From Roseovarius nanhaiticus (lineage in GTDB: Bacteria; Pseudomonadota; Alphaproteobacteria; Rhodobacterales; Rhodobacteraceae), in the NCBI RefSeq assembly GCF_900156535.1, contig NZ_FTNV01000002.1:310001-374000 (forward strand): a DNA stretch of 64,000 nt. The letters run 5' to 3'. Both the position numbers and the translations under genes were made by a program. Of the stretch, positions 21,343 through 37,662 are shown piece after piece; the first letter of the stretch is position 1, and each line of letters opens with the position of its first letter. Under the pieces are notes generated by a model that made no database searches, had not been told where the DNA came from, and worked only from the letters and a program-made list of their open reading frames with translations.

Positions 21343-22953
21343 CTAGCGCGCCGCGCCCTCATGCGCCACATCCAGCGCGGCGCGCAGCAAGGCTTGGGTG
21401 TATTCGGTTTGCGGACGCTCGAAGAGGTCTTCGGCACTGCCGGCCTCGACCACATCACCCTGCTTCATAACCATGATCTTGTGGCTCATCGCACGCACCA
21501 CCGCGAGGTCGTGGCTGATGAAAAGATAGGCCAGTCCATATTTCTGCTGCAGCCGGCGCAGCAGATCCACGATCTGAACCTGCACCGTCATGTCCAGCGC
21601 GCTTGTCGGCTCGTCGAGCACCAAGAGCCGGGGCCGCAGGATCATCGCGCGGGCGATCGCGATACGCTGGCGCTGTCCGCCCGAGAACTCGTGCGGGTAG
21701 CGATCCATCGCCGCGCGCGGCAATTCCACCTCGTCCAGCATCTCGGCCACCAGATCGCGCTGCGATCGGCCCTCTTGCCCCTCGGGCAGGCCATGCACGC
21801 CCAGACCCTCGGCAATGATCTCGGCGCAGGTCATACGCGGGCTGAGGCTGCCGAACGGGTCCTGAAAGACGATCTGCATGTCCGCGCGCCGGCGGCGCAG
21901 CGCCTTGGTGGACCAGCCATGCACATCCTCGCCGCAAAACCGGATGCCCCCTTCGGAGCCAATCAGCCGCATCATGGCCAGCGCCAGCGTTGTCTTGCCG
22001 GACCCGCTCTCGCCCACGATGCCAAGCGTCTCGCCCGCGTGCACGCTCAGGCTGGCCTCGTTGACCGCCTTGACGTGACCAACCGTCTTTTTGAGGAAGC
22101 CTTTCTGGATCGGGAACCAGACCCGCAGCTTGTCGGCCTCAAGGATGACGGGCGCATCGGGCGCCACTGGCGCCGGCCTTCCCGATGGCTGCGCATTCAG
22201 CAGCTTGCGGGTATAGTCATGCTGCGGATTGCCAAAGACCTCGGCCGTGGGCCCGGCCTCGACCACCATCCCGTCCTTCATCACACACACCTTGTCGGCG
22301 ATACGCCGCACGATCCCCAGATCGTGGGTGATGAAGAGCAGCCCCATGTCACGGCTCTTCAGCTCCGCCAACAGCTCAAGAATCTGCGCCTGAATGGTCA
22401 CATCAAGCGCCGTCGTCGGCTCGTCCGCGATCAGGATGTCGGGCTCGTTTGCCAGCGCCATTGCAATCATCACGCGCTGCCGCTGCCCGCCCGACAGCTG
22501 ATGGGGATAGGCGCCCAGACGGCTCTCGGGCTCGCGAATGCCGACCTCGGTCAGCAGTTCGATGATGCGCGCGCGGGCCTCCGCCCCGGTTAATCCCTGG
22601 TGCAGCGCCAGCGACTCGCCCAGCTGCTTTTCCAGCGTATGCAGCGGATTGAGCGAGGTCATCGGCTCCTGAAATATGAAGCTGATGTCGTTGCCGCGCA
22701 CCTTGCGCAGGGTCTTTGCCGGCGCGCCAATCAGCTCCTGCCCGTCATATTTTACACTGCCGCCCACCTCCGCGGCATCGCCCAGCAACGACACGGTGCT
22801 GAGCGCGGTGACGGATTTGCCCGACCCGCTCTCGCCCACCAGAGCGACGGTCTCGCCCCGGTCCACGGTAAAGCTGACGCCATGCACGCAGCGCGTCAGC
22901 GTCCCATCCTGCCGAAAGGCGATGGTCAGGTTTTCGACCGTCAGAAGGCTCAT
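21343..22953 (-). CDS. yejF: Peptide ABC transporter, duplicated ATPase
   Basis: The 536-residue fusion of two ABC ATPase domains drives the YejABEF oligopeptide/microcin C importer. Walker A motifs are [10 protein letters not shown] (first half) and [10 protein letters not shown] (second half). Signatures are LSGGQRQR and FSGGQRQR, and Walker B regions are DILIADEP and LLVLDEP. Each half has the OppD/F-type C-terminal extension (GRPAPV and ERPQTEYT). Its start overlaps the yejE stop by ATGA. It is last in the operon yejA-yejB-yejE-yejF. Confidence 0.95.
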
Positions 22954-24056
22954 CTAAACGTCTTTCTGGGGTCGAAGGCGTCGCGCACCCCTTCAAAGAT
23001 AAAGACCAGCAGCGACAGCATTATCGCGAAGGCGAAAAAGGCGGTAAAGGCCAGCCACGGCGCCTGCAGGTTCTGCTTGGCCTGCAAGGTCAGCTCGCCC
23101 AATGAGGGCGACGAAGACGGCAAGCCAAAGCCGAGGAAGTCGAGCCCCGCCAAGAGCGAGATCGTCCCGGTGATCACGAAGGGCAGCATGGTCAGCGTCG
23201 CCACCATCGCATTCGGCAGCATGTGGCGGAACATGATGCGCCGATTGCTGACGCCCAGCGCCTTGGCCGCGCGCACGTATTCCAGGTTGCGCGCGCGCAA
23301 GAACTCGGCCCGCACCACGCCCACCAGCGCCATCCACCCGAAAAGCACCGTGATCCCGACCAACAGCCAGAAACCCCGCGGCAGGATGGCAAACAGGATG
23401 ATGATCACATAAAGCTGCGGGGTCGCTGCCCAGATCTCGATGAACCGCTGAAAGGTCAGATCCAGCCAGCCGCCGAAATAGCCCTGCACCGCCCCCGCCG
23501 CGATCCCGATGACCGAGGCGAGCGTGGTCACGATCAGCGTGAACATCACCGAAAGGCGGAAGCCGTAGATGACGCGCGCCAGCACGTCCCGCTTGGTATT
23601 GTCCGTGCCCAAGAGATTCTGCCCGTTCGGCGGCAGCGGCGCCGCCCCGGGCCGGTCGACGGGGGTGTCGTAGCTGTAGGGAATGGGCGGCCAGATGGCC
23701 CAGCCCTTGGCGATCTCCTCGCCCTCCACCACGCCATCGGCGGCATCTCCGATGACCCCTTCCGGATCGTCGAAACAGATATCAAGCCCGCCGGACGCGA
23801 TCAGGCAGCGCACTTCGGGATCGCGGTAAACCGCCTCGGTCTTGAAATCGCCGCCAAATTCCGTCTCGGGATAGAAATTGAAGATCGGCGTATAATACTC
23901 GCCCCGGTACTGCACCAGGATTGGCTTGTCGTTGGCGATGAACTCGGCAAAGAGACTCAGCCCGAAGACAATCGAAAAGAGGACCAGCGACCAGAACGCA
24001 CGCCGATTGCGCCGGAAATTGCGCCACCGACGCTGGTTGAGCGGCGAAAGGGCCAT
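22950..24056 (-). CDS. yejE: Peptide ABC transporter, permease YejE
   Basis: The 368-residue inner-membrane permease of the DppC/OppC family has an unusually long periplasmic insert after the first membrane helix, typical of YejE (about residues 40-150, with GGDFKTEAVYRDPEVRCLIA and the GTDNTKRDV motif). Five more hydrophobic segments and the EAA-type loop (EYVRAAKALGVSNRRIMFRH) contact the ATPase. The ATG at 24056 starts MALSPLNQRRWRNFRRNR, the family form. The 124-base gap upstream of it holds a dispersed motif and two hairpins. Confidence 0.94.
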   Translation of the reverse strand: MALSPLNQRRWRNFRRNRRAFWSLVLFSIVFGLSLFAEFIANDKPILVQYRGEYYTPIFNFYPETEFGGDFKTEAVYRDPEVRCLIASGGLDICFDDPEGVIGDAADGVVEGEEIAKGWAIWPPIPYSYDTPVDRPGAAPLPPNGQNLLGTDNTKRDVLARVIYGFRLSVMFTLIVTTLASVIGIAAGAVQGYFGGWLDLTFQRFIEIWAATPQLYVIIILFAILPRGFWLLVGITVLFGWMALVGVVRAEFLRARNLEYVRAAKALGVSNRRIMFRHMLPNAMVATLTMLPFVITGTISLLAGLDFLGFGLPSSSPSLGELTLQAKQNLQAPWLAFTAFFAFAIMLSLLVFIFEGVRDAFDPRKTFR

Positions 24057-24072
24057 CAGCGCCGCCCCCCCG

Positions 24073-24094
24073 TTTCTTCTTGCGAAAAATATCC
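24073..24094 (+). repeat. Dispersed intergenic motif, related copy E
   Basis: TTTCTTCTTGCG then AAAAATATCC. It is related to copies A-D at the same base positions but less similar. It lies between yejB and yejE, where a transporter operon would not normally need a spacer. Confidence 0.45.
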
Positions 24095-24108
24095 TGGGGT
24101 GAGCCGGA

Positions 24109-24148
24109 GGATTTCGCAGAAATCCGTAGGCGAGGGGCAACGCCCCTC
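24109..24148. repeat. Two adjacent hairpins between yejB and yejE
   Basis: GGATTT-CGCAG-AAATCC (24109-24125) and GAGGGGC-AAC-GCCCCTC (24132-24148) are perfect inverted repeats. They sit just after the dispersed motif in the 124-base yejB-yejE gap. In the mRNA they could attenuate or stabilise the downstream part of the operon. Confidence 0.5.
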
Positions 24149-24180
24149 TGCGCGGCTAACCAGATGGACAGAACAGCGCA

Positions 24181-25269
24181 TCATCCCTCCCGCTTCTCGA
24201 AGTCGATGCGCGGATCGACCAGCACATACATCAGGTCGCTAAAGATGTTCACCACGAGGCCGATCAGGCCAAAAAGGAACAGCGTGCCGAACATCACCGG
24301 GTAATCGCGCCCCACGGCCGCCTCGAAGCCCAGTCGCCCCAGACCATCGAGCGAGAAGATCGTCTCGATCAGGACAGACCCGCCAAAGAAGATGCCGATG
24401 AAGACCGTCGGAAATCCCGCGATCACGATCAGCATCGCGTTGCGAAAGACATGGCCGTAGAGCACACGCTTTTCCGACAACCCCTTGGCGCGGGCGGTAA
24501 TCACGTACTGCTTCTTCACCTCGTCGAGAAAGCTGTTCTTGGTCAGTAGCGTCAGCGTCGCAAAGGCTGCAATGGTGCTGGCCAGCACCGGCAGGGCGAT
24601 GTGCCACAGATAATCGAGTATCTTGCCGGCCAGCGTGAACGTGTCGAATTCGTCCGAGGTGAGGCCGCGCAGAGGAAAGATCTTGAAATAACTGCCCCCC
24701 GCAAAGAGGACCAGCAGCATGATGGCAAAGAGGAAGGCCGGGATCGCATAGGCCACGATGATTATCCCACTGGTCCAGGTATCGAAGGTGCTGCCATCCC
24801 GCACCGCCTTGGACACGCCCAGCGGGATCGAGATGAGATAGGCGATCAACGTGGACCATAGCCCGAGCGAGATCGAGACAGGCATTTTCTCCAGCACCAG
24901 ATCGGTCACCTCGATCTTGCGGAAATAACTCTCGCCGAAATCGAACTGCATGTAATTCCACATCATCAGGCCGAACCGCTCCAGCGGCGGCTTGTCGAGG
25001 CCGAACTGCCTTTCCAGCTCTGCGATCATCTCGGGCGGCAGGCCGCGCGCGCCGACATAGGCATTTTCGCCTTGGGTGCCCATGGCCGTGCCCGCATCGC
25101 TGCCGCCACCGGCAAAGCTGTCAAAGACGTCGCCCTTGCCCTGCATGTTGGCGATGGCCTGCTCGACGGGGCCGCCCGGCACGAATTGCACAAGGGCAAA
25201 GTTGATCACCATGATCCCCAGAAGGGTCGGGATGATCAGCAAGAGCCGCCGCAGGATATAGGCCCCCAT
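24181..25269 (-). CDS. yejB: Peptide ABC transporter, permease YejB
   Basis: The 362-residue DppB/OppB-type permease has an N-terminal helix ([20 protein letters not shown]) and a large periplasmic segment (about residues 35-120). Several membrane helices follow, and the EAA loop ([20 protein letters not shown]) contacts the ATPase. It begins six bases after the yejA stop. It forms the channel with YejE. Confidence 0.94.
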
Positions 25270-25275
25270 GCGGCG

Positions 25276-27234
25276 TTACCTCATTTCGCCCGACGCGGCG
25301 AGCGCGGCGGCCTTGTCCGGATCAACCCACCAGAAATCCAGCACGCCCAGCGCATAGGGCGGCATCGGCTCGGGATGGGCGAACTTGTCCCAATAGGCGA
25401 CCCAGTGAGAATCGTTGTACCAAACGGGGATCATAAACCGCTCATAGCGCAGCGCACGGTCGAGGGCCATCAGCGCCGCCTCCTGCGTGGCCAGATCGTT
25501 GGTGTCCAGCGCCGCGTTGATGATGGCGTCCACCATGGGGCTGGCGAGGCCCGCGGGATTGAACAGGCTGTATTCCGCCCCTTCCGAGCCGAAACGCTGC
25601 ATCAGGCCGGTGCCGGGCTCCAGAAAGGCCATGTAGCTGTCGAAAATCATGTCGTAATCGCGGTCTCGGTTGCGCAGCGTGTATTGCGACGAGTCGATCT
25701 TCTCCATCTTGGCATCGATGCCCATCGCCTCGAGATTATTGATGAAATTCTCGACCACGGCGACGATCGTGGCCGACCCCGAGGAGGAGACGGGCAATTC
25801 GATGCTCAGCACCTCACCCTCCGCATTACGCCGCATGCCGCCCTCGCCTACGGGCCAGCCGGCCTCGTCAAGCAGCGACATCGCGCGGCGCAGGTTGCGC
25901 CGGTCCGTCAGGCGGCTGGCATCCGAAGTATGCGCCGTGACTGCCGGCTGGGTCAGCACCTCTTCGGGGATGACGTCGCCGAGGCTTTGCAGCAATTCCA
26001 GCTCGGCGCCTTCGGGCGCCCCCATTGCTTCCAGCGGCGTATCCTGAACAAAGCTGTCGCGCTGCTCGAAAAGGCCGAATTGCAGGCTCTCGTTGGTCCA
26101 TTCAAAGTTGAAGGCCAGAGAGATCGCCTCGCGCACACGCTTGTCCTGCAGCTTCTCACGGCCGAGGTTGAAGACGAAGCCGGAAGGAACAGGGGGCGAG
26201 CCGTCGGGGATCTCTTCCAGCTTGACCCAGCCCTCGTTCGCGGCGGGAAAATCATAGCCCGTCGCCCAGGTCTTGGATGTCGTCTCGGCGCGGAAGCTGT
26301 ATTCGCCCCCGGTGAATGCCTGAAACGCGACGGCGTCATCGGCGAAGTAAAGCACGCTGATCGTATCGAAATTGTGCCGTCCCAGATTGATCGGCAGGTC
26401 GCGGCCCCAATACTCGGGGTTGCGCGTGTAGGTGATGCTGCGGTCGGCCTCGGCGTTTTGCAGGACATAGGGCCCCGAGCCGGGGGACGGGTCCATGCGC
26501 GGCTCATCAAGGCGCGCGCCCGTTTCCTCGTACCACGCCTTCGAGAAGACCGGCACATTGCCAACCTGGTCGATCAGCGACCGGCGCGAGATACCTTCGG
26601 CGAAAGTGAACTTGACCGTATGATCGTCCAGCGCTTCGGCGCCCGGCACACGCTGCCTTACCGCTTCGGCGTAGGATTGCAGGCCCTGATCCAGCAGCAG
26701 ATTGTGCGAAAAGACGACGTCATGCGCCGTCACTGGCGTGCCGTCCGAAAACCGCGCTTCGGGGCGCATATAAAAGATGACCCAATTCTTGCCCGCATCA
26801 TATTCCAGCCGCTCGGCCAGCAGGCCGTAGGACTGACCATAGACATCGGCGGGCAGACCCTCACTGGTGCTGGGCATGTCGCCCAGCAGGCTTTCGTACA
26901 TCATCCATGAATAGGCCCCCGCGCGATCCTTGCGCGAATAGGGGTTCATAGAGCTGAACGTGCCGGTCACGGCCAGCGATATCTCGCCGCCTTTGGGCGC
27001 CTCGGGGTTCACATAGTCGAAATGCGGGAAATCGGCGGGGTATTTCAGATCACCGAAATAGCTGTAGCCATGGCTTGTGATGATCTCGGCGTCCTGGTTA
27101 TTGCCAGTGGCTGCGGCATCATCGGCCAGCGCGCCATGGGCCATGAGGGCCGCAATGGCCAGTCCGGCAAGGGCCGCGCGCAGACCAAAGCTGCGCCCGC
27201 CTGCCGTCTGTGCCTTGGTGTCGCCAGATCTCAT
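25276..27234 (-). CDS. yejA: Peptide ABC transporter, substrate-binding protein YejA
   Basis: The 652-residue family-5 extracellular solute-binding protein has a Sec signal peptide (about residues 1-37, ending HGALA-DD; a basic MRSGDTKAQ precedes it). It captures oligopeptides for the YejBEF channel; in E. coli the Yej system imports microcin C. Conserved stretches include SMNPYSRKDRAGAYSWMMYE and the YWGRDLP and PEPMPPY regions. It is the first gene of the yej operon; the promoter lies in the 180 bases upstream, which also hold an AT-rich TATATA stretch. Confidence 0.95.
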   Translation of the reverse strand: MRSGDTKAQTAGGRSFGLRAALAGLAIAALMAHGALADDAAATGNNQDAEIITSHGYSYFGDLKYPADFPHFDYVNPEAPKGGEISLAVTGTFSSMNPYSRKDRAGAYSWMMYESLLGDMPSTSEGLPADVYGQSYGLLAERLEYDAGKNWVIFYMRPEARFSDGTPVTAHDVVFSHNLLLDQGLQSYAEAVRQRVPGAEALDDHTVKFTFAEGISRRSLIDQVGNVPVFSKAWYEETGARLDEPRMDPSPGSGPYVLQNAEADRSITYTRNPEYWGRDLPINLGRHNFDTISVLYFADDAVAFQAFTGGEYSFRAETTSKTWATGYDFPAANEGWVKLEEIPDGSPPVPSGFVFNLGREKLQDKRVREAISLAFNFEWTNESLQFGLFEQRDSFVQDTPLEAMGAPEGAELELLQSLGDVIPEEVLTQPAVTAHTSDASRLTDRRNLRRAMSLLDEAGWPVGEGGMRRNAEGEVLSIELPVSSSGSATIVAVVENFINNLEAMGIDAKMEKIDSSQYTLRNRDRDYDMIFDSYMAFLEPGTGLMQRFGSEGAEYSLFNPAGLASPMVDAIINAALDTNDLATQEAALMALDRALRYERFMIPVWYNDSHWVAYWDKFAHPEPMPPYALGVLDFWWVDPDKAAALAASGEMR

Positions 27235-27363
27235 GCCGTCCCTCCCGAGTGATGTGAATACAGTCTTATATATACAAGCCGCACGCTAAAGGAGGGGCAG
27301 CGCGACATTCAAGCGGGTAAAAAATTTGTCAGCGCGCGCGCCGAGGGGCACCGGACATAAATA

Positions 27364-27393
27364 GGGCCGCCACTCCATCGGGAATGACGGCCC
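27364..27393 (-). terminator. Terminator hairpin after the cytochrome c gene
   Basis: On the minus strand GGGCCGTCATTCC pairs fully (with G-T pairs) with GGAGTGGCGGCCC around CGAT, 22 bases past the cytochrome stop. A short TATTTAT follows rather than a long T-run. Confidence 0.6.
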
Positions 27394-27414
27394 ATGATCC
27401 GCTATAATGCGGTG

Positions 27415-27939
27415 TTAGCTGCCGACCGAATCCAGATACGCGATCAGGTTCGCGCGGTCCTCGACATCCTTCAGCCCCGAATAACCCATCGATGTGCCGG
27501 GCGCATAACCCTGCGGGTTTTCGAGAAAGCCATTCAAGTTCTCGGGCGTCCAGACGTCAGCCGCCTCGGAGAGCGCGCCGGAATAGGCATAGCCGTTGGC
27601 GGTGCCAACATCGCGGCCCACGACATTATAAAGATAGGGGCCCGCACCGTTCACACCGTCCTCCAGCGCGTGGCACGCACGGCACTGGTTGAAGATCCGC
27701 TCGCCGCGGCCCGCATCGGCCATGGCATAGACTTCCTCGAAGGGGACAGCGGCCTCTTCGGGCTCGGCGCTCTCGTCCTCGCCGGTGTCGATCATGTAGC
27801 CTTGCACGACCTCGCCGTCATGATCCCCACCGGCCTCGGCGTGATAGATCGTCTCGGCCGCGAACTTGCCCAGCAGGAACACCAGGAAGGCGCCGGCGAA
27901 ACCGCCCAGAATTTTGGTGAATGTCATTGTATCGAACAT
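27415..27939 (-). CDS. cycM: Membrane-anchored cytochrome c (cy/c552 type)
   Basis: The 174-residue class I c-type cytochrome has an uncleaved N-terminal membrane helix (about residues 9-28), an acidic linker (38-65) and a heme domain. The heme site is CRACH (Cys86-His90) and the axial Met is Met151 in GTSMGYSG. This architecture is that of cytochrome cy of Rhodobacter and CycM of Bradyrhizobium, which carry electrons from the bc1 complex to terminal oxidases at the periplasmic face. It is divergent from pheA with a 141-base gap. The symbol is by family. Confidence 0.92.
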   Translation of the reverse strand: MFDTMTFTKILGGFAGAFLVFLLGKFAAETIYHAEAGGDHDGEVVQGYMIDTGEDESAEPEEAAVPFEEVYAMADAGRGERIFNQCRACHALEDGVNGAGPYLYNVVGRDVGTANGYAYSGALSEAADVWTPENLNGFLENPQGYAPGTSMGYSGLKDVEDRANLIAYLDSVGS

Positions 27940-28080
27940 GAGCCCGCTTCCATTTGATATCCGTTGGCCGCGTATCTATCCGCTTCCCCTCCCCTTGCGC
28001 AAGGTATAGTTTCCGCGACCAAATGCCCGCCCTGCCCCGATCACGGCGCCCGCGGGCGACGGCACGGGGGACAGCACGAC

Positions 28081-28914
28081 ATGAGCCAGATCATTGCCTT
28101 TCAGGGCGAGCCGGGAGCCTATTCGCATCAAGCCTGCTTGCAGACCTATCCCGACGCCACGCCCCTGCCCTGCCGCACCTTCGAGGATGCGATCGAAGCG
28201 GTGCGCAGCAATGCCGCGCATCTGGCGATGCTCCCGGTCGAGAATTCCACTTTCGGCCGGGTCGCCGATATCCACCATCTGCTGCCCGGCACCGGGCTGC
28301 ACATCATCGCCGAAGCGTTCGTTCGGGTGGAAATCGCGCTTCTGGCCGTGCCCGGCACGCCGCTGAAGCGGATCGAAAGCGCAATGAGCCACGCGATGCT
28401 GTTGGGCCAGTGCCGCGCGTTTCTGGGCGCGCATGGCATCGCCCGCGTCACTGGCGCCGATACCGCCGGATCGGCCCGCGAGGTCGCCGAGCTGAACGAT
28501 CCGGCCATGGCCGCCTTGGCCAGCCCTCTGGCGGGCGAGATCTATGGTCTCGACATTCTGGCGCGCGGCATCGAGGACGAGGGAAATAACACCACCCGCT
28601 TCCTGGTAATGTCGCCGACACCCGACAGGGCGCGCCGCGGCACGGCAGGCATGATGACCAGTTTTGTCTTTGAGGTGCGCAATATTCCGGCCGCGCTTTA
28701 CAAGGCCATGGGCGGATTCGCGACCAATGGCGTCAACATGACCAAGCTTGAAAGCTACATGGTGGGCGGATCTTTTACCGCTACACAGTTCTATTCCGAC
28801 ATCGAGGGGCACCCGGATGATGCGAATGTTGCACTCGCGCTGCAGGAACTCGATTATTTCACCAGCCAAGTGACAATTCTGGGCGTCTACCCGCGCGATC
28901 CGCGTCGGGACTGA
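28081..28914 (+). CDS. pheA: Prephenate dehydratase
   Basis: This 277-residue monofunctional enzyme converts prephenate to phenylpyruvate for phenylalanine synthesis. The dehydratase domain covers about residues 1-180 (FQGEPGAYSHQAC, LPVENSTFG) and carries the catalytic NNTTRF motif. A C-terminal ACT domain (about 190-270) senses Phe. Its usual ESRP motif reads ESYM, as in many alphaproteobacteria. The ATG at 28081 gives the conserved MSQIIAFQGEPGAYS start. Confidence 0.95.
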   Translation: MSQIIAFQGEPGAYSHQACLQTYPDATPLPCRTFEDAIEAVRSNAAHLAMLPVENSTFGRVADIHHLLPGTGLHIIAEAFVRVEIALLAVPGTPLKRIESAMSHAMLLGQCRAFLGAHGIARVTGADTAGSAREVAELNDPAMAALASPLAGEIYGLDILARGIEDEGNNTTRFLVMSPTPDRARRGTAGMMTSFVFEVRNIPAALYKAMGGFATNGVNMTKLESYMVGGSFTATQFYSDIEGHPDDANVALALQELDYFTSQVTILGVYPRDPRRD

Positions 28915-28942
28915 CCAAACGCCTTCCTGCGTTGACGATCGA

Positions 28943-28975
28943 ACGTCCATCCGGCCTCCGGATGGGCGTTTTTTC
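28943..28975 (+). terminator. Intrinsic terminator after pheA
   Basis: ACGTCCATCCGG pairs with CCGGATGGGCGT around CCT, followed by a run of Ts. The last stem bases are part of a G-rich duplex with one G-T pair. Confidence 0.88.
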
Positions 28976-29169
28976 ATGGTCGGAGGTTACAGCCCCTCAC
29001 GCCGGAGGACGAAAGCAGTCACGCCGAAGTGACGCATTGCGAGGCCAGAGTCACAGGGTTGCGAGGCGGGTTTTTAATTTAGACCATTAGGTTCATATTC
29101 ATCTCACAGCACGGCGACAGACGCCCTACACCACATTGAATAACGCAACCAGCACAAAGGATTAACACA

Positions 29170-30009
29170 ATGACACGCTTTGCACTCATCGCCCTTATCG
29201 CCGCCACCGCCACCGCCGGCCCCGCACTGGCAGTCGGGTTCACCTCGTCCGCCAATGAAGCCGTCGCGGCCCGTGACATCGCAGATCGCCAACACGGCTT
29301 TCAGATCAGCGAACTGAGCGCCGACGAGCGTGGCGGTCTCAACACGACGCCCAACGCCCGTGACATCGCGGACCGCGAAGACGGCTTCCAGATCAGCGAG
29401 CTGAGCGCCGAAGAGCGTGGCGGCTTCAACACGACACCCAACGCCCGCGATATCGCAGACCGCGAAGACGGCTTTCAGATCAGCGAGCTGAGCGCCGACG
29501 AGCGTGGCGGCCTCGACACGACGCCCAATGCGCGTGACATCGCAGACCGCGAAGACGGCTTTCAGATCAGCGAACTGAGCGCCGACGAGCGTGGCGGCCT
29601 CGACACGGCACCCAACGCCCGCGATATCGCAGACCGCGAAGACGGCTTTCAGATCAGCGAGCTGAGCGCCGACGAGCGTGGCGGCCTCGACACGACGCCC
29701 AATGCGCGTGACATCGCAGACCGCGAAGACGGCTTTCAGATCAGCGAACTGAGCGCCGACGAGCGTGGCGGCCTCGACACGGCACCCAACGCCCGTGACA
29801 TCGCAGACCGCGAAGACGGCTTCCAGATCAGCGAGCTGAGCGCCGACGAGCGTGGCGGTCTCGACACGGCACCCAACGCCCGTGACATCGCAGATCGCGA
29901 AGACGGCTTTCAGATCAGCGAGCTGAGCGCCGACGAGCGTGGCGGTCTCGACACGACGCCCAACGCCCGTGACATCGCAGACCGCGAAGACGGCTTCCAG
30001 ATCAGCTAA
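29170..30009 (+). CDS. Secreted acidic protein of nine 29-residue tandem repeats
   Basis: The 279-residue product starts with a Sec signal peptide (MTRFALIALIAATATAGPAL, cleaved near Ala21). After a short linker it is only repeats: eight full copies and one 14-residue part copy of a 29-residue unit (ARDIADREDGFQISELSADE, then RGGLDTTPN). Units differ by a few residues (QH/ED, D/E, L/F, N/D, TT/TA). The protein is acidic, with no Cys and no predicted membrane segment after the signal. AAAGGA precedes the ATG. The 194-base gap before it is AT-rich near its middle but no clear promoter was found. Perfect terminators stand on both sides, so it is a single-gene unit. I do not recognise a family. 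Function is unknown; a periplasmic or surface repeat protein is inference. Confidence 0.85.
   Translation: MTRFALIALIAATATAGPALAVGFTSSANEAVAARDIADRQHGFQISELSADERGGLNTTPNARDIADREDGFQISELSAEERGGFNTTPNARDIADREDGFQISELSADERGGLDTTPNARDIADREDGFQISELSADERGGLDTAPNARDIADREDGFQISELSADERGGLDTTPNARDIADREDGFQISELSADERGGLDTAPNARDIADREDGFQISELSADERGGLDTAPNARDIADREDGFQISELSADERGGLDTTPNARDIADREDGFQIS
29269..30006 (+). repeat. Tandem array of 87-bp units
   Basis: Eight 87-bp copies (29269-29964) and one partial copy (29965 on) keep one reading frame. Units 3+4 (29443-29616) and units 5+6 (29617-29790) are identical over 174 bp, which shows a recent two-unit duplication. Units 7 and 8 differ by few bases. The array can be expected to change copy number between strains. 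Confidence 0.95.
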
Positions 30010-30030
30010 AAAATGTAGTGGTCGCATTGC

Positions 30031-30062
30031 AAAAGGCGTCGGACTGCGGTCCGACGCCTTTT
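30031..30062. terminator. Bidirectional terminator between repeat-protein and SRPBCC genes
   Basis: AAAAGGCGTCGGAC and GTCCGACGCCTTTT form a perfect 14-bp stem with a TGCG loop. The A/T ends let it work in both directions; it lies between two convergent genes. Confidence 0.9.
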
Positions 30063-30078
30063 CGCATGTCGCATTATG

Positions 30079-30546
30079 TCACGCGTTACGCATGTATCGC
30101 TCTTCCAGCTCCTTGGCGTAGGAGGCGACACGCATCTCGAAGCGTTTGGTCACATTGCCCCGCGCCAGCTTAAGCGACTGCAGCATCAGACGCGCCGACA
30201 GGTTCTTTGCCTTCAGCTCGCAAGTCAGCGCGACCCGGGTACGACCGCGCGACAACGCCACCAGCTCGACCACCAGATCGCCACTCAAGGACTTGCCGAT
30301 CCCCTCAAAGCGCATCATCGCGGGGGGCTCAAACGTGACGAGCGTGACTTCCAGCTGTCGACGCTTGCCCTTCATCTGAAACGAGGTGTCCCAAATCATG
30401 CCAGCGGCGGGCGGGGTATGATCCAGCTTACGCTGAATTTCGGCGCCGCGGCGCAGGATCGACCGCTCGATCGCGGCGAAGTCGGAGAGTTGCGCAAAGA
30501 CGAAGTCGATCGGCGCTTCGATATCTTCGCGGGTCGTGAAAATCAT
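30079..30546 (-). CDS. SRPBCC-family (START-like) protein
   Basis: The 155-residue protein starts MIFTTREDIEAPIDFVFAQL, the usual opening of polyketide-cyclase/START-like domains, and continues in that fold. These proteins bind hydrophobic ligands or lipids; ligand and role are unknown. The ATG at 30546 was chosen because it starts the domain; the longer frame would run into the nudC end. It lies 94 bases downstream of nudC on the same strand. Confidence 0.85.
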   Translation of the reverse strand: MIFTTREDIEAPIDFVFAQLSDFAAIERSILRRGAEIQRKLDHTPPAAGMIWDTSFQMKGKRRQLEVTLVTFEPPAMMRFEGIGKSLSGDLVVELVALSRGRTRVALTCELKAKNLSARLMLQSLKLARGNVTKRFEMRVASYAKELEERYMRNA

Positions 30547-30640
30547 GTTGGTGCCCTGTTTCGATGCACCGCTTCGGGTGCTTTGCAGCGCGGGTCGCAA
30601 AATAGGCCCCGGCGCGTGATGCCTCGTCGCTATTGTCGCC

Positions 30641-31603
30641 TCATTCAAGATTGTCCGCAAGCCAGTTGCGCAGCAGGAATTGCGCAATGGCGCCCTCGCG
30701 TGCGGGCATCAAGAAGGCGTGCTGCCCGGCGAATGCGTCCATTAACTCTTCACGTGTGATCCAGACGGCATCCTCGATCTCGACCGGGTCAATCTGTATT
30801 TCCGTGGTGCGCGCCGTGCCGCGCATCCCCATCATCAGCGATGCCGGAAAGGGCCATGGCTGACTGGCAAGATAGCTGACCTCGCCCACCTCGACATGCG
30901 TCTCTTCCCAGACCTCGCGCCGCACCGCGGCCTCCAGCGTTTCGCCCGGTTCGACAAAGCCGGCAAGCAGCGAATACATTCCCTCGGGCCAGCCGGGCGA
31001 GCGGCCCAGCAGCACCGAATTGCCATGCGTGATCAGCATGATGACGACGGGATCGGTGCGCGGAAAGTGATGCGCGCCGCAGGCCGGGCAAAGGCGCTGC
31101 CACCCGGCTTGCGTGATGTTGCTTGCCGCACCGCAGCGCGCGCAAAACCCGTGAATGTCGTGCCAGCCGGACAGCGCACGAGCGGTTGCCGCCAGGGCCG
31201 CGTCATCGGCGGTGAGCACTGTCATGATGCGCCGCAGTTCGGCAAAGACGCCGGCTTCCAGCGCCGGGTGGCGCTGCTCGGTCGGGTCGGAAAATGTGTC
31301 GATGACGCCGGGCGCATCGCCCACATCCGGCTCCCAGCGCGAAATGTCATGCGCAAAGATCAGCTGGCCATCCTCTTCGCGGCCCAAGAAGATGCGGCGC
31401 GCACCGTCCAATACCGGGTGATCCATCGGCAATCTGATCAGCGGCGCCAGCGCGCCTTCGGCAACCAGGGGTTTGCCGCGCCATGTCAGGATCGTCTGAG
31501 CGCGCGAACCTTGCCGCAGCGCCGCGTCCAAATCGGTGCCGCGCAACTCGGCGGCACGGTCCAGCGTGCCACCTCCGAAAGTCACCGTCTCTGCCAACCT
31601 CAC
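30641..31603 (-). CDS. nudC: NAD(+) diphosphatase (NudC-type Nudix hydrolase)
   Basis: The protein has a zinc ribbon with four cysteines (FCARCGAAS and RLCPACGAH). The Nudix box reads GFVEPGETLEAAVRREVWEE. An SQPWPFPASLMMGM segment downstream is the SQPWPFPxS array specific to NADH pyrophosphatases. It cleaves NAD(H) to NMN(H) and AMP, and family members also decap NAD-capped RNA. The start is uncertain: GTG at 31603 has a GGGGGAG ribosome site and gives 320 residues, while ATG codons to 31687 would extend it. The GTG was preferred. Confidence 0.92.
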   Translation of the reverse strand: MRLAETVTFGGGTLDRAAELRGTDLDAALRQGSRAQTILTWRGKPLVAEGALAPLIRLPMDHPVLDGARRIFLGREEDGQLIFAHDISRWEPDVGDAPGVIDTFSDPTEQRHPALEAGVFAELRRIMTVLTADDAALAATARALSGWHDIHGFCARCGAASNITQAGWQRLCPACGAHHFPRTDPVVIMLITHGNSVLLGRSPGWPEGMYSLLAGFVEPGETLEAAVRREVWEETHVEVGEVSYLASQPWPFPASLMMGMRGTARTTEIQIDPVEIEDAVWITREELMDAFAGQHAFLMPAREGAIAQFLLRNWLADNLE

Positions 31604-31864
31604 CCGCGCTCTCCCCCGCTCGCCCCATCCCGCCGGGGTGCCACGAAGGCCCGCCCCGCGCAAGCCGTGCATGCAGTGACGCAACACTCCCCGCGGAAAT
31701 CCGGTTTTCGCTTTAAGGTTGCATCATAAGTCTTTGTAAATTCTTGTGGGTGTATTAGCCCAAAAAGGGACGGGCGCCCGAAAACCCACCCCGGCGCAGA
31801 CTGCAATGATTACCAAAGACGACCCTCTACACTGAAAAATCCCCAAGGGCCCAAGGGAGAAAGC

Positions 31865-33772
31865 ATGAACGTCATATCAGCCGCCCCAGACAGGGTCGAC
31901 GCCGCCACACCATTGCCGGACGGCACGACGGCGCAACTACGCCTGCTGGGAACGACCGATCTGCACGCACATGTGATGGCCTACGATTATTACGCTGACC
32001 AAGGTGGGCAGCCTTACGGGCTGGTGCGCATCGCAACCGCCATCCGCGCCGCCCGCTCCGAAGTGCAAAACACCTTGCTTTTTGACAATGGCGACGCGCT
32101 TCAGGGGACGCCGATGGGCGATCTGACGCTATGCCCGAAAACGCGTTGGGCTGGCCCAAGCCCCGTCATCGATGCAATGAATGCGCTTGGCTATGACGCG
32201 GCGGGCCTCGGCAATCACGAATTCAACTTCGGCATCGACTGGCTGGTGCGGACAATTGGCGCTGCCGCGCATCCTGTGACCTGTGCCAATGTCGAGATAC
32301 CAAGCGGCGCCGCGCGGCGCGACTGGCCGGTCAAGCCCTATCTGATCCTCGATCGCTTGCTGACATGCGAGGATGGCACGCAGCATCCAGTGCGCGTTGG
32401 CGTGCTGGGCCTGGTGCCGCCGCAGATCACCATGTGGGATCGGCTGCATCTGGATGGCCGCCTGGCCGTCCATGACATGGTCGAGACCGCGCGCTGGACC
32501 ATCCCGCGCCTGCGGGCCGCGGGCGCGGATCTGGTCGTCGTGCTGGCCCATAGCGGCATTGGCGCAGAAACCCACGAGGCGATGGCAGAAAACGCGGCGC
32601 TCGCCCTCGCGGGGCTGGACGGGGTCGACGCGATCATGACGGGGCATAGTCACGGTCTCTTTCCAATTGGCGGCGCCACAGAGGGCAGCGGTGGCGTCGA
32701 CCACGGCCGTGGCCTGCTGGCGGGTGTGCCTGCAGTCATGGCAGGTGCCTGCGGTGGTCACCTGGGCGTTCTTGACCTGGCGCTAGAGGCGCGAGAGGGG
32801 CGATGGGCCATCGCCGGCCACGGCGCCGCCTTGCGCAGCGCAGCGTCGCTGCCCTGCGATCCGCCGCTCGAGGCGCGGCTGGCAGCGGCGCATCAGATGA
32901 CGCTGCAACATATGCGACAGCCCATAGGCACGGCCGCGATGCGCCTGCACAGCTACCTCGCCCTGGCGCGGCCCGACGCATCGGTTTCGGCGCTCAATGC
33001 GGTGCAGACGCGGCTGATGACGCGCAGGCTGAGAGGTACAGCATATGAGGGCAGAGCGGTGCTGTCGGCCACGCCCGCCTTCAAGACCGGCGGGCGGGGC
33101 GGCCCCCGCAACTTCACCGACCTGCCGGAAGGCACCCTTTCGGTGCGCCATGCGGCCGATCTCTATCCTTTTCCCAACCGCCTTTGCGGGATCGCGATCA
33201 GCGGCGCGGACTTGCGCGACTGGCTGGAGCGCGCGGCGATTTGCTTTGCAAGGCTGCACCCCGGCGTGCCGGATCAGGTGCTGCGCAACATGAATGTGCC
33301 GGGGCATGATTTTGACGTCATTTCGGGTGTCACCTACAGTCTCGATCTGACCGCGCAACCGCTCTATGACCGGATGGGACAGCGCCAGCCGGGCACGCTC
33401 GGGCGTGTCCGCGATCTGCGCCATCATGGCAGGTCAGTCGCAGACGAGGCGCAGTTCATTCTCGCCACGAACACCTATCGCGCCTTCGGTGCGGGCGCTT
33501 TCGCTCCGATCCCGCGGGAGCGCATCGTGCATATATCGGACAGCCTGTTGCGGCAGGATCTGACAGATGAGGTGGGGCAAACACCCCTTGCCCCGACGCC
33601 GGACTATGAGAGCAACTGGCGTTTTTCGGCCATTCCCGGCGCGTCGGCCCTTCTGGATACCGGGCCGGGCCTGCGCAGCGATCCTGCGGCGATGGCCGCG
33701 CTGGTCGCTGAGGGCGCTGTGGATCTGGGCGATGTCGAGGGCGGCTTCTGCCGCATCCGCCTGCCTTTTTGA
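31865..33772 (+). CDS. cpdB: 2',3'-cyclic-nucleotide 2'-phosphodiesterase/nucleotidase family, lacking a signal peptide
   Basis: The 635-residue protein has both domains of the 5'-nucleotidase/CpdB family. Metallophosphatase motifs are TTDLHAHV, FDNGDALQG, LGNHEFNFG, LAHSGIG and GHSHGLFP. The C-terminal nucleotide-binding domain covers about residues 340-630, with FPNRLCGIAISG. Unlike periplasmic CpdB there is no signal peptide: the ATG is followed by polar residues (MNVISAAPDRVDAATPLPDG), and the AAGGGAGAA ribosome site fixes this start. It may thus be cytosolic or exported by another route. The symbol is by homology only. Confidence 0.87.
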   Translation: MNVISAAPDRVDAATPLPDGTTAQLRLLGTTDLHAHVMAYDYYADQGGQPYGLVRIATAIRAARSEVQNTLLFDNGDALQGTPMGDLTLCPKTRWAGPSPVIDAMNALGYDAAGLGNHEFNFGIDWLVRTIGAAAHPVTCANVEIPSGAARRDWPVKPYLILDRLLTCEDGTQHPVRVGVLGLVPPQITMWDRLHLDGRLAVHDMVETARWTIPRLRAAGADLVVVLAHSGIGAETHEAMAENAALALAGLDGVDAIMTGHSHGLFPIGGATEGSGGVDHGRGLLAGVPAVMAGACGGHLGVLDLALEAREGRWAIAGHGAALRSAASLPCDPPLEARLAAAHQMTLQHMRQPIGTAAMRLHSYLALARPDASVSALNAVQTRLMTRRLRGTAYEGRAVLSATPAFKTGGRGGPRNFTDLPEGTLSVRHAADLYPFPNRLCGIAISGADLRDWLERAAICFARLHPGVPDQVLRNMNVPGHDFDVISGVTYSLDLTAQPLYDRMGQRQPGTLGRVRDLRHHGRSVADEAQFILATNTYRAFGAGAFAPIPRERIVHISDSLLRQDLTDEVGQTPLAPTPDYESNWRFSAIPGASALLDTGPGLRSDPAAMAALVAEGAVDLGDVEGGFCRIRLPF

Positions 33773-33863
33773 CCCCGCCTTCACGCACGCAATGCAGTCA
33801 CGGATTTGTGAGCGCGCCCATACCCGGCACGCGCTACTTAAAGTCGCAGCAACAAGGAGACAC

Positions 33864-34778
33864 ATGATGAGCACTTCCCACATAACCCGCCGCACCCTTC
33901 TGGGCGCGGCTGCCGCGCTGCCCTTGGCCCATGCTGCAAAGGCCGCCGCCCCGATGATGGGCGCCTCCGCCGCGATCCATCGCCGCGTCGCGCTGGGGGG
34001 ATTCGAAGTTACGACTTTGCTGTCGGGTTCGATGCCGCGTGATGATCCGCATTCGATTTTCGGCCTCGACGTGGATGCCGAAACGTTCAGCCAGGTCGCG
34101 AATGACGCTCTCTTGCCCACCGACAAGGCGCAATTCTTCTTTACGCCGACGCTGGTCAATACCGGCAAAGAGCTGGTTCTGTTCGATACCGGCCTCAACC
34201 CCGAGGGCATCACCGCTGCGCTCGAGGCCGCCGGATACACAGCCGATCAGGTAGACATCGTGGTGCTGACGCATATGCACGGCGATCACATCGGCGGGCT
34301 CAGCGGCGACAATGGCACGACCTTCGCCAATGCGCGCTACATCGCGGGTGCGGTCGAATATGACCACTGGGCTGCCGCCGGGAATGACGGCTTTGACTCC
34401 AAGGTGCGCCCGCTGGCGGAACAAACGACCATGATCGCCCCCGGCGAGGATGCGGCCTCAGGCATCACCGCAGTCGAAGCCTTCGGTCACACGCCGGGTC
34501 ACATGGCCTACCGCATCGAGAGTGAAGGCAAATCCCTGCTGATCGCCGCCGACTTCGCCAACCATCCGGTCTTCTCGCTTGAACAGCCGGATTGGGAGGT
34601 GAAATTCGACATGGACAAACCCGCCGCCGCCGCCACACGGCGCAAGCTTCTGGACATGCTGGTGGCCGAGCGGATGCCGTTTATCGGCTATCACATGCCG
34701 TTCCCCGCCATGGGCTTTGTCGAGGCACGTGGCGATGGCTATGGTTATGTTCCCGAGAGCTATCAGCTCCGTCTCTGA
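33864..34778 (+). CDS. MBL-fold metallohydrolase, Tat-exported
   Basis: This 304-residue metallo-beta-lactamase-fold enzyme carries an N-terminal twin-arginine signal (HITRRTLLGAAAALPLAHAA). The metal site is THMHGDHIGG, followed by GHTPGHMAYR and AADFANHP, the conserved metal ligands of the fold. AAGGAG precedes the first of two ATG codons. Tat export means that the enzyme folds with metal before transport. The substrate is unknown; lactonase, arylsulfatase and quorum-type hydrolases share this motif. Confidence 0.9.
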   Translation: MMSTSHITRRTLLGAAAALPLAHAAKAAAPMMGASAAIHRRVALGGFEVTTLLSGSMPRDDPHSIFGLDVDAETFSQVANDALLPTDKAQFFFTPTLVNTGKELVLFDTGLNPEGITAALEAAGYTADQVDIVVLTHMHGDHIGGLSGDNGTTFANARYIAGAVEYDHWAAAGNDGFDSKVRPLAEQTTMIAPGEDAASGITAVEAFGHTPGHMAYRIESEGKSLLIAADFANHPVFSLEQPDWEVKFDMDKPAAAATRRKLLDMLVAERMPFIGYHMPFPAMGFVEARGDGYGYVPESYQLRL

Positions 34779-34833
34779 CTGAAGCTGAAAGACCTGCACC
34801 GCGCAGCTTTCCTTCGCGCGGCGCAGGCCCCAT

Positions 34834-35235
34834 ATGGGTAGGATGAAACCCACCCCCACCCTCGCCCGGATCGAAGAGATCGCGCTGGCCGCAATCGCCG
34901 TGCTGCCAGCGCCCTTCGCAGCCGCCGCAAGGCAAGTGGTGCTGCAAGTCGAGGATCTTCCGGACGCCCGCATGCTCGCCGATCTGGGCATGGACGATCC
35001 GATGGAGCTGACCGGGCTCTACGATGGCGTCCCGATGACCGAGAAATCAACCGCCTTTCCCGCGCCTTATGCCGATACGGTCTGGCTTTTTCGCCAGCCG
35101 ATCCTTGCGGAGCTGGAAACGCGCGAGGGGGTCACGCTGGAAGAGCTTGTGGCCCATGTGACAGTGCATGAGTTCGCCCATCATTTCGGGTGGTCAGATG
35201 ACGACATCGCCAGCATCGACCGTTGGTGGGAATAG
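34834..35235 (+). CDS. Metallopeptidase family protein (minimal MMP-like, DUF1025)
   Basis: The 133-residue protein has the zincin motif VHEFAHHFGWSDDD near its C-terminus: two His and one Glu of HExxH plus a later acid. This is the whole catalytic part of the DUF1025 family of very small metalloproteases, which lack extra domains. Its target is unknown. The start (34834 or ATG 34843) is not certain because no good ribosome site is seen. It is followed after seven bases by the convergent wrbA. Confidence 0.82.
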   Translation: MGRMKPTPTLARIEEIALAAIAVLPAPFAAAARQVVLQVEDLPDARMLADLGMDDPMELTGLYDGVPMTEKSTAFPAPYADTVWLFRQPILAELETREGVTLEELVAHVTVHEFAHHFGWSDDDIASIDRWWE

Positions 35236-35242
35236 CCGGGCC

Positions 35243-35833
35243 TTAGCTGCCCAGCTTGTCCGCGATCCCAATCATGCGCTTGGTTTGATGCCGGATCGCG
35301 CCCTTGACGGTGTCGTTGACCTCCCCCGCGATCGCCGTCGCACCATAGGGGTTGCCCAGCTCGAACATGATGTCATCGGTATAGCCCGGCGCGGCCACGA
35401 TGCAGCCCCAGTGAATCAGCGTGGCGTGCAGGTGCATCAATGTGGTCTCCTGCCCGCCATGCGCGCTCTGGGTCGAGGTCATGCCGCCCGCCACCTTGTT
35501 CGCCATCACACCCTTTTGCCACAGCGGGCCCAGCGTGTCGAAAAACGCCTGCATCTGGCTGGGCATGGACGAAAACCGCGTCGGCGCCGAGATCAGATAG
35601 GCGCTCGCCCATTCCATATCCTCGGGAGCGGCCTCGGGGATGTCCTTCATCCGCGCGACTTGCTCTGTCCAGGCGTCCTGCCCGTCAATCACCTCTTGCG
35701 GCGCCGTCTCGCGCACACGGCGCAAGCGCACCTCGGCACCCGCCGCACGCGCCGCCTCTTCTGCGCAAGTCGCCATCTCGTGATTGGTGCCGTAGGTGGA
35801 ATAAAACAGGATCAAAAGGCGTGTGCCGGACAT
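35243..35833 (-). CDS. wrbA: NAD(P)H:quinone oxidoreductase WrbA
   Basis: The 196-residue flavodoxin-fold enzyme performs two-electron reduction of quinones. FMN phosphate binding is by YSTYGTNH after the first strand, and the conserved PTRFSSMPSQMQAFFD, TSTQSAHGGQETT and NPYGATAIAG segments fit WrbA. The ATG at 35833 has AAGGAG before it; the longer frame to 35866 is not needed. Confidence 0.95.
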   Translation of the reverse strand: MSGTRLLILFYSTYGTNHEMATCAEEAARAAGAEVRLRRVRETAPQEVIDGQDAWTEQVARMKDIPEAAPEDMEWASAYLISAPTRFSSMPSQMQAFFDTLGPLWQKGVMANKVAGGMTSTQSAHGGQETTLMHLHATLIHWGCIVAAPGYTDDIMFELGNPYGATAIAGEVNDTVKGAIRHQTKRMIGIADKLGS

Positions 35834-35915
35834 TTGGGTCTCCTTGAACGGGGTTCCCCTAAGCAATGCACTGCCGGCCTCTTTCGTTCCCGCGGCACGC
35901 CGCGCGTGGCTCCAA

Positions 35916-35937
35916 TTTCATCTTGGCAAAAATACTC
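35916..35937 (+). repeat. Dispersed intergenic motif, related copy D
   Basis: TTTCATCTTGGC then AAAAATACTC. It lies in the 128-base gap between the nadE stop and the wrbA start. It is close to the motif at 5296 in its ends but differs in the middle. Confidence 0.5.
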
Positions 35938-35961
35938 GATCGCGCGCAGCGCGTCCCGCAG

Positions 35962-37662
35962 TCAGCCTGCCGCGCCGTCCCGCCAGCGATTGGCGATTGG
36001 ATATCGCCGGTCCAACCAGAAGGCATGTTTGCTAAGGCGCGTGCCCGGCGCGGACTGAAAGCGTTTGTATTCGCTGATATAAATCAGATGTTCGACCCGC
36101 GCCGCATCTTCGCGGCTAAAGCCTGCCTTGACGCAGTCGTCAATGCTGCCATCCCCGTCGACCAGGATCTGCAGTATCGCATCCAGCACCGGATAATCGG
36201 GCAGCGAGTCGCTGTCTTTCTGGTCCTCTCGCAGCTCGGCCGAGGGCGGCTTGTCGATGATGCGCGGCGCGATCACCTCGCCCTCCGGGCCCATCATCCA
36301 CGCGCGATGAGTGGCGTTGCGCCAGCGGCACATCTCGAACACGCGGGTCTTGTAGAGGTCCTTGATCGGGTTGTAGCCGCCATTCATGTCGCCATAGATC
36401 GTGGAATAGCCCACCGCGACCTCGGATTTGTTGCCCGTGGTCAGCAGCATTTCTCCGAACTTGTTGGACATCGCCATCAGCAAAAGGCCCCGCAGGCGGG
36501 ATTGGATGTTTTCTTCGGTCAGGTCTTCGGCGTGTCCGGCAAAGAGCGGTGCAAGCGTTTCGGTGATCGCCGCGCGCCCCTTGTCGATAGGCACAAAATC
36601 ATAGGCGCAGCCCAGCGCCTCGGCCACGGCCTGCGCGTCATCAAGCGACGCCTGGCTGGTATATTCCGAGGGCAGCATGACGCAGCGCACGTTGCCCGCA
36701 CCCAGTGCGTCCGCGGCGATGACCGCAACGATGGCCGAGTCGATGCCCCCCGAGAGGCCCAGCAGCACCTTCTTGAAGCCGGTCTTGCGCATGTAATCGC
36801 GCAAGCTGAGGACCATGGCGTGATAATCCTGCTCCATCTGGTCCGGGATATGCGCAAGCACCCCGGCCTCGGCGCGCCAGCCCTCGGGGCCTTGAATGAA
36901 ATCAACATGGGCCAGCCCGGTCTCGAAAACCGGCATCTGCACCGCCAGCCCGCCGGCGGGGTTCAGCACGAAACTGCCCCCGTCGAACACCTGATCGTCC
37001 TGACCGCCCACGAGGTTGAGGTAGACCAGCGGCAGGCCCGTCTCGACCACGCGGCTGACCATGATGGTCTGGCGCGTCTCCATCTTGCCCCGGTAATAAG
37101 GCGAGCCGTTGGGCACCAGAAGGATCTGCGCGCCTGTCTCGGCGAGCGTCTCGGCCACGTCCTCGTGCCAGGCGTCCTCGCAGATCGGGCTGCCGATCCG
37201 CACCGGCCCGACCGTATAGGGCCCCGCCACGGGGGCCGAGCCGTAAAGGCGCATCTCATCAAACACCGTCTCGTTGGGCAGGTGATGCTTGAGCACGCGC
37301 GCCGTCACAGTGCCGCCTTGAAGGACGTAATATGCGTTGAAGAGTTCCGCCCCCTCCAGTGCCGGGCCGCCGATCGCAATCGCAGGCCCGTCTGCGCAGT
37401 CGGCGGCGAGCGCGTGGATGGCCGCGATCGCCTCCTGGTGAAAGACGGGCTTCATCACCAGATCCTGGGTGTTGTACCCGGTAGCGAACATCTCGGGCAG
37501 GGCCAGCATGTCGGCGCCCGCGTCCCGCGCCTCGGCCCAGGCGGCGCGGACTTGCGCGATATTGCCTTTGATGTCGCCCACGGTAGCATTCAGTTGGGCC
37601 AGCGTCAGGCGAAACCTGCCGGAGGTGCCTGAGGTGTCGGACGTACCGGGCCGATGGGACAT
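35962..37662 (-). CDS. nadE: Glutamine-dependent NAD(+) synthetase
   Basis: The 566-residue two-domain enzyme makes NAD+ from deamido-NAD+ using glutamine. The N-terminal nitrilase-type amidase has the catalytic triad Glu57 (LPEMF), Lys125 (LKHHLPN) and Cys161 (PICEDAW). The C-terminal synthetase has the ATP P-loop LSGGIDSA (303-310) and the MSNKFGEMLLTTGNKSE region. The ATG at 37662 has GGAAGG at good spacing. It lies upstream of wrbA on the same strand. Confidence 0.96.
   Translation of the reverse strand: MSHRPGTSDTSGTSGRFRLTLAQLNATVGDIKGNIAQVRAAWAEARDAGADMLALPEMFATGYNTQDLVMKPVFHQEAIAAIHALAADCADGPAIAIGGPALEGAELFNAYYVLQGGTVTARVLKHHLPNETVFDEMRLYGSAPVAGPYTVGPVRIGSPICEDAWHEDVAETLAETGAQILLVPNGSPYYRGKMETRQTIMVSRVVETGLPLVYLNLVGGQDDQVFDGGSFVLNPAGGLAVQMPVFETGLAHVDFIQGPEGWRAEAGVLAHIPDQMEQDYHAMVLSLRDYMRKTGFKKVLLGLSGGIDSAIVAVIAADALGAGNVRCVMLPSEYTSQASLDDAQAVAEALGCAYDFVPIDKGRAAITETLAPLFAGHAEDLTEENIQSRLRGLLLMAMSNKFGEMLLTTGNKSEVAVGYSTIYGDMNGGYNPIKDLYKTRVFEMCRWRNATHRAWMMGPEGEVIAPRIIDKPPSAELREDQKDSDSLPDYPVLDAILQILVDGDGSIDDCVKAGFSREDAARVEHLIYISEYKRFQSAPGTRLSKHAFWLDRRYPIANRWRDGAAG

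Follow-up and report, generated by a model that had tools for sequence, protein, structure and literature searches.

What does a small exported protein do that consists almost wholly of near-identical 29-residue units and resembles no named family? The repeat gene behind pheA in the window, by which we mean the whole 64-kb stretch of Roseovarius nanhaiticus DNA analysed here, raises this question (Table 1). TRF places an array of 87-bp period at 29269-30006 (8.5 copies, 92% matches, score 1245), and the second-best array in the window scores 64, leaving this one as the sole strong array. The first-pass annotation had described a protein of nothing other than repeats past its signal peptide. 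Eight full 29-mers and a 14-residue part copy are indeed present, and a linker of 12 residues, absent from that description, separates the first 29-mer from the signal-peptide-like start, which suggests that the protein is exported. The unit had also been called acidic, in agreement with a net charge of -0.152 per residue in the window protein, which contains 10% Gly and has a hydrophilicity of 0.93.

Table 1. Features of the repeat gene and its surroundings, in window coordinates.
Feature	Position	Strand	Basis
Hairpin and T run behind pheA, setting the repeat gene apart from pheA	28941..28974	+	RNA folding, z -5.8
CenR-type operator, 46 bp, half-site steps 10/10/12/10 bp	29019..29064	+	Upstream alignment of relatives
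Putative -10 (CATATT) and +1 (CA)	29094..29107	+	Conserved alignment columns only; inference
Ribosome-binding site AAAGGA	29156..29161	+	Sequence; similar site in the upstream alignment of relatives
Exported tandem-repeat protein gene, 279 aa, ATG start	29170..30009	+	ORF list, TRF, codon-position pattern
Signal-peptide-like N terminus MTRFALIALIAATATAGPALA, 21 residues, similar in relatives	29170..29232	+	Sequence, own reading
Eight complete 87-bp / 29-aa units, each module A ARDIADREDGFQI plus module B SELSADERGGLDTTPN	29269..29964	+	TRF; modules via relatives
Last part unit, module A, 14 aa; protein end coincides with unit boundary	29965..30006	+	Sequence, TRF
Terminator-like hairpin	30031..30062	+	RNA folding, z -7.8

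Differences among the eight window units fall at codon positions 1/2/3 in 48/0/132 pairwise counts, which, with a pN/pS of 0.131, marks the + frame as the coding one. An overlapping 307-aa open reading frame on the - strand (29104-30027) was rejected on this codon-position pattern, as the third-position changes of the + strand would be changes at its first codon position. The gene has its own promoter region and is bounded by terminator-like hairpins, in keeping with the single-gene unit proposed in the first pass, and we infer that it is transcribed alone from that promoter region. The companion claim of two strong terminators holds for folding: 30028-30068, 3' of the repeat gene, folds at -29.9 kcal/mol and 28938-28978, between pheA and the repeat gene, at -23.4 kcal/mol, with the z scores of Table 1. 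It does not hold for sequence, in that a consensus terminator scan of 28880-30200 found none and the T run at the downstream hairpin, judged by eye, has only 4 T. A consensus promoter scan upstream of the repeat gene found none, and an Rfam search of 28900-30100 gave no match up to E 0.1.

A family match was accepted where the score lay above the curated cut-off and at least one stretch passed by itself. The profile searches that had been suggested for the window protein yield no convincing match, either in Pfam-A (best 22.4 bits against a cut-off of 25, no single stretch passing) or in NCBIfam (best 11.4 against 281), and PDB offers no relative at E<=1, so that the earlier statement of no named family stands. 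A Pfam scan of six relatives (two of them trimmed) and the G092 protein gave one score above cut-off, PF08515 in G012 (23.8 against 21.3), in which no stretch passes alone; we take this match to be a summing artefact of the repeats. A search of open-licence PMC papers found no description of such a repeat-protein family. An origin from a plasmid or phage was considered separately and rejected, as tblastn of the window protein matched none of 72,556 records from plasmids and 50,697 from phages, a set from which records close to its own genome may be absent.

The proposed search in other roseobacters proved only partly informative at the protein level, since among 60 genomes the window protein finds, besides itself, a single relative in G013 (44% identity). 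This relative consists of 16 copies of a 14-residue unit (AARDLNDRKDGFEI) that corresponds to the first half of the 29-mer, and its gene sits behind pheA like the window gene. We therefore took pheA as an anchor, and a family emerged. pheA is present in 83 of 84 Roseovarius genomes and 82 flanks are readable, some of them short (G002, G017, G101); the two genomes without a flank are G103, where pheA is cut by a contig end, and G032, which has no pheA match. At least 32 of the 82 pheA 3' flanks hold a complete exported repeat protein. The 50 flanks without a complete gene may include overlooked members, and one in G002 is cut by the contig end. Others lie off the pheA flank in G003, G004, G009 (1.4 kb away), G086 and G101 (cut by the contig end), and G073 and G075 carry two further short members of one motif each.

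Unit lengths in these homologues range from about 12 to 29 residues and the unit sequences are unlike, as illustrated by AVDLGDRAEQDIA (G026), AELSERERQTDI (G068), AELSVQERNNTF (G022), AGDLDVNDRKTMNQI (G004), SELSEQERPGIDNPRPWMT (G087), GETNPGDREGVIYN (G070) and GAPYFDEEKDNQLGFGF (G012), while the copy number varies from one to about 17. Residues 1-20 have a median identity of 0.50 against 0.19 for the mature part (496 pairs among 32 proteins). None of the 39 family proteins (32 at pheA and 7 elsewhere) contains Cys, 30 are net acidic, and 31 end in a hydrophobic plus a small residue. Judged from their sequences, these proteins apparently make up an undescribed Roseovarius family that is small, cysteine-free, Sec-exported and mostly acidic, with a signal peptide followed by motif modules. 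The pattern points to a fast-evolving cell-envelope protein, in which gene and control DNA are common to many relatives and the repeated unit differs.

Both module types are found side by side in G074, G088, G085, G082 and G094/G095. G074 and G088, which are close to the window by pheA (87% pheA identity), carry the two modules in short arrays or in mixed order, and the window 29-mer can thus be understood as a two-module higher-order repeat. The module core runs from an acidic to a hydrophobic residue, then, after 0 to 3 residues, to D/E and R/K, and the usual close is a hydrophobic residue followed by A/S/G. Written as [DE][LIVTP]x(0,3)[DE][RK], this core occurs in 22 of 24 representative units (the exceptions are in G086 and G012) against 2.6 expected from shuffled units, for a pattern picked after viewing the units and a set of 24 that are not independent. 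Two other descriptions of the units were discarded: the DG motif as an EF-hand, because by eye it is not kept in other members, and a fixed coiled-coil period, because of the variation in unit length.

A second feature that unites the family lies upstream. The upstream alignment covers 28 carriers, and 26 of these, without G095 (same upstream as G094) and G100 (gap), give the operator consensus TCAC - GTG - GTGA - TCAC - G.GA with steps of 10, 10, 12 and 10 bp. The window operator, about 150 bp upstream of the repeat gene, has one mismatch to this consensus, with GCGA as its third half-site. Scored over 16 positions, the operator reaches 12-16 in 31 of 32 carriers, G016 being the exception; of the 50 non-carrier pheA flanks, 47 score no higher than 11. 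Of the three high-scoring non-carriers, G002 has the contig-cut member, G009 has its member 1.4 kb on, and G066 scores 12. In 30 of 32 carriers the operator lies 137-177 bp from the start codon; G016 and G100 depart from this spacing. Within its own genome the window operator is the only site at one mismatch or fewer, and allowing up to three mismatches yields 10 sites, compared with 11 in the reversed control. Across the 84 Roseovarius genomes, a search at one mismatch or fewer yields 39 sites, spread over 32 genomes, where the reversed control yields 2. The exact consensus is present in 16 of these 84 genomes versus 1 of 394 in a sample of the bacterial family (one genome per genus, 392 from other genera), and the ORFs behind that one site are not of the repeat-protein type.

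Because the operator was derived from pheA-linked genes, sites off the pheA flank provide an independent test of it. Six of the eight exact sites of this kind are followed by a family protein (G004:C59:84106, G009, G086, G101, and, with short single-motif proteins, G073:C1 and G075), and two are not (G004:C59:83678, with N beside the site, and G073:C21). One-mismatch sites off the flank precede members in G003 and at G004:C56:149580, and no such protein in G010, G094:C4, G096, G069 and G097:C12; G095:C1, G082:C18 and G066:C295, also among the 39, were left out of the inspection.

Two further arrangements accompany the operator. The G004 segment L218 (C59:83578-86078) contains two exact operators 428 bp apart, the second followed by a family gene start broken by an N run and then by a complete family gene, and the same genome also carries copies at pheA and at C56:149480. 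Elsewhere, a one-mismatch operator stands before another small exported protein of 69-117 aa that has no repeats (L217 in G092, L220 in G080 and L224 in G029; for example METDPSDRVPTWVSES), which may belong to the same regulon as a second member.

A candidate for the protein that binds this operator is CenR, an essential protein of the OmpR type that regulates envelope genes in R. sphaeroides (PMC9275681). Its published site is TGA-N8-TGA with half-site steps of 10 bp, placed upstream of the -35 element and co-directional in activated genes; of its 31 direct targets, 29 belong to the envelope or periplasm, and the targets include tolQ as well as rpoH1, the latter by ChIP-seq and EMSA (PMC9275681). 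A matrix built from the 31 R. sphaeroides sites gives a mean best score of 8.8 on repeat-gene upstreams versus 5.4 on shuffles, but when the 28 upstreams are considered one by one, only 11 score above their dinucleotide shuffles at p<=0.05. The matrix scores equally high on either strand (mean best 8.85 versus 8.78), and its top match lies outside the conserved boxes in some species. Its boxes on the window + strand are TCACGCCGAAGTGAC (10.0 bits) and TCACAGGGTTGCGAG (8.7 bits), with p=0.020 for the window upstream; used by itself, the single-box matrix is a poor discriminator.

The composite motif GTGA-N8-TCAC is found upstream of 12 of 28 repeat genes (13 of 32 for the full carrier set) and in 8 of 23 rpoH1 upstreams, compared with 2 of 880 background 300-mers, which are mostly coding DNA from several genera, and 0 of 28 pheA upstreams, a set from which two loci lacking an anchor were dropped. 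The rpoH1 gene of the window's own genome (L273) has GCAC-N6-GTGA-N8-TCAC upstream. This sharing with rpoH1, along with half-site steps of 10 bp that agree with the published CenR sites (PMC9275681), argues against the rival reading that another regulator, OmpR-type or dimeric and palindrome-binding, occupies the operator, in which case the envelope-stress link would be wrong, with family and operator still real. That reading draws on tolQ, where the motif occurs in 0 of 27 upstreams and the promoters show a CenR box only in part. As tolQ is also a target, this counts against a simple CenR rule. The weakness of the single-box matrix favours it too, as does the related motif TCAC-N6-GTGA, which is exact in just 3 of 32 repeat-gene upstreams. 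The latter motif is nevertheless exact upstream of the Roseovarius metallo-beta-lactamase-fold gene in 16 of 25 cases, against 2 of 1360 background 200-mers (a part match at L321 was left out), which suggests that CenR-type boxes are readable in Roseovarius. Since both motifs are palindromic, another dimeric regulator is possible. On these sequence matches we regard CenR as the probable regulator of the repeat gene, and a different regulator as a serious contender with somewhat less than an even chance.

Similar sites occur elsewhere in the window. The CenR-type palindrome TCACGGATTTGTGAG lies at 33798-33812 (+), about 66 bp upstream of a metallo-beta-lactamase-fold gene (33864-34778), and the R. 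sphaeroides CenR table lists RSP_1834 as 'Beta-lactamase superfamily', a likeness by description only (PMC9275681). The substrate-binding gene of an ABC transporter (25276-27234, -) has a CenR-matrix match of 12.6 bits, TGACAAATTTTTTAC (27317-27331, -), roughly 80-100 bp upstream; an ABC peptide transporter binding protein appears in the same regulon table, again likened by description only (PMC9275681). Finally, the palindrome-like CenR-type site TCACGCGAGCGTGAA at 58421-58436 scores 14.7 and 14.3 bits on its two strands and is about 500 bp before a groEL-like ORF (56277-57920, -).

Silent and amino-acid changes were compared between the units of single arrays. Among 11 arrays tried, all of regular period, 10 were measurable (G022 gave no in-register pairs), and pN/pS is 0-0.254 in all 10, with pairwise counts inside one array that are not independent. 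The window array has a pS of 0.224 and a pN of 0.029, and 9 of its 15 variable codons vary silently only, the other 6 changing a residue. For the 17 units of G068, pS is 0.505 and pN 0.034. Amino-acid changes are thus rare relative to silent ones, which places the unit sequence under selection, and G068, where half of the silent sites differ and the protein hardly at all, indicates that unit likeness is not simply the youth of an array. Codon selection against slippage could also raise pS. Purifying selection acts within arrays, and units turn over between species. The selected repeat of the first-pass annotation is borne out by pN/pS, not by near-identity as such. Window units 3 and 5 share one DNA sequence, and units 4 and 6 another (29443-29790), pointing to a recent 174-bp duplication.

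These measurements bear on the possibility that the protein is a charged, disordered filler or protectant of the hydrophilin or LEA-like kind, for which composition would matter and homogenisation would reflect mere unequal crossing-over. The charged, mostly hydrophilic sequences and the net acidity of 30 of 39 family proteins fit such a role, but a pN/pS of 0-0.25 alongside silent differences of up to 0.5 means that the unit sequence itself is kept, which argues against plain filler. Hydrophilins are defined by Gly above 6% and mean hydrophilicity above 1, thresholds that only 8 of the 39 proteins reach and that the window protein misses on hydrophilicity. We consider this reading unlikely.

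A folded scaffold, such as a beta-solenoid on the surface or one binding ice or metal, was the role first suggested for the window protein. AlphaFold, run without an alignment, does offer one regular beta-strand repeat as the best model (pLDDT 59.5, pTM 0.57), but four of its five models have pLDDT 30-37, and a relative with diverged units is not folded (pLDDT 52.6, pTM 0.13). Perfect repeats can mislead a structure predictor. The recommended fold prediction thus returned a single beta-repeat-like model and an unreliable result overall, and we read the models as no evidence for a fold. Neither Cys nor the RTX or calcium-binding nonapeptide pattern (GGxGxD) is found in any of the 39 family proteins. 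Further, units of about 12 to 29 residues with unlike sequences occur in one family, and relatives carry quite different units at the same locus; this turnover speaks against any contact of a fixed kind, whether ice, metal or housekeeping. A folded scaffold is therefore decidedly improbable, and the mature protein is more plausibly largely disordered.

Between-species turnover of units that are alike within one protein is also what a multi-copy peptide precursor would produce. Envelope proteases would cut at the hydrophobic|Ala/Ser/Gly unit boundary, and the peptides would act outside the cell as species-specific signals or inhibitors. HtrA-type proteases may favour such junctions. Of the 39 family proteins, 31 end in a hydrophobic plus a small residue. 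The better-kept signal peptide (0.50 versus 0.19 for the mature part) and a copy number that ranges between one and about 17 agree with this idea, as does an ABC importer a few genes away (22950-27234) whose binding protein weakly matches the oligopeptide/nickel type. Inspection by eye of the ORFs in 24000-36000 reveals no protease or peptide exporter, however, and some members (G097, G074) combine two different modules or diverged units; the mixed modules in particular argue against a precursor, which we judge distinctly unlikely. A more specific version, in which CenR would switch the gene on under envelope stress and, after export and cleavage, species-specific peptides of 12-29 residues would report stress to kin or inhibit relatives, seems more doubtful still. 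If true, it would explain why units are alike within a genome yet replaced between species.

The reading that we favour, at close to an even chance, is a CenR-regulated, probably disordered periplasmic protein that displays a species-specific motif in many copies. The repeat gene would probably be switched on, along with rpoH1 and further envelope genes, by the CenK-CenR envelope two-component system, and the exported protein, most likely largely disordered, would reside in the periplasm. There, through multivalency, many identical short motifs may bind a partner in the envelope, retain it or saturate it, with array duplication changing the copy number. Duplication or conversion, combined with selection against amino-acid change, would keep the units of one array alike, and unit and partner would drift together between species, a fast coevolution that we assume.

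An exported tandem-repeat protein is a known kind of protein; what appears to be new is the family itself, membership defined by an operator, and the replacement of units at one fixed locus. Fast-changing repeat proteins easily pass for orphans when sequence search fails. Here a conserved position and operator unite quite different repeats as one family, and the operator can serve as a family finder. The members, with one to about 17 units and single, double or mixed modules, provide a natural series for studying likeness within genomes against change between species, a series that would be tied to an essential envelope two-component system if the CenR reading is true.

Several known systems resemble parts of this picture. 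Hydrophilins and LEA-like proteins, as generally defined, are likewise charged, repeat-built and Cys-free, whereas the Roseovarius family has a signal peptide, unit sequences under purifying selection and few members (8 of 39) within the hydrophilin thresholds. Multi-copy precursors of the yeast alpha-factor type share the order of a signal peptide followed by short units that are alike and differ between species; in contrast, the Roseovarius proteins have no known cleavage or receptor, and some contain mixed modules. RiPP precursors with hypervariable repeated cores also keep the leader better than the repeated rest, but the Roseovarius leader resembles an ordinary Sec signal, Cys is absent from all 39 proteins, and no RiPP modifying enzyme was recognised by eye among the window ORFs of 24000-36000, three neighbours of which were run against a family library. 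The CenKR regulon of R. sphaeroides differs in that CenR recognises one 15-mer, where the repeat-gene operator has five half-sites in 46 bp, and its 31-row table has no entry annotated as a repeat protein, with 'putative secreted' and hypothetical entries known by annotation only (PMC9275681). The two nonetheless share half-site steps of 10 bp and an upstream, co-directional placement (PMC9275681), and the core of the repeat-gene operator is common to Roseovarius rpoH1 promoters.
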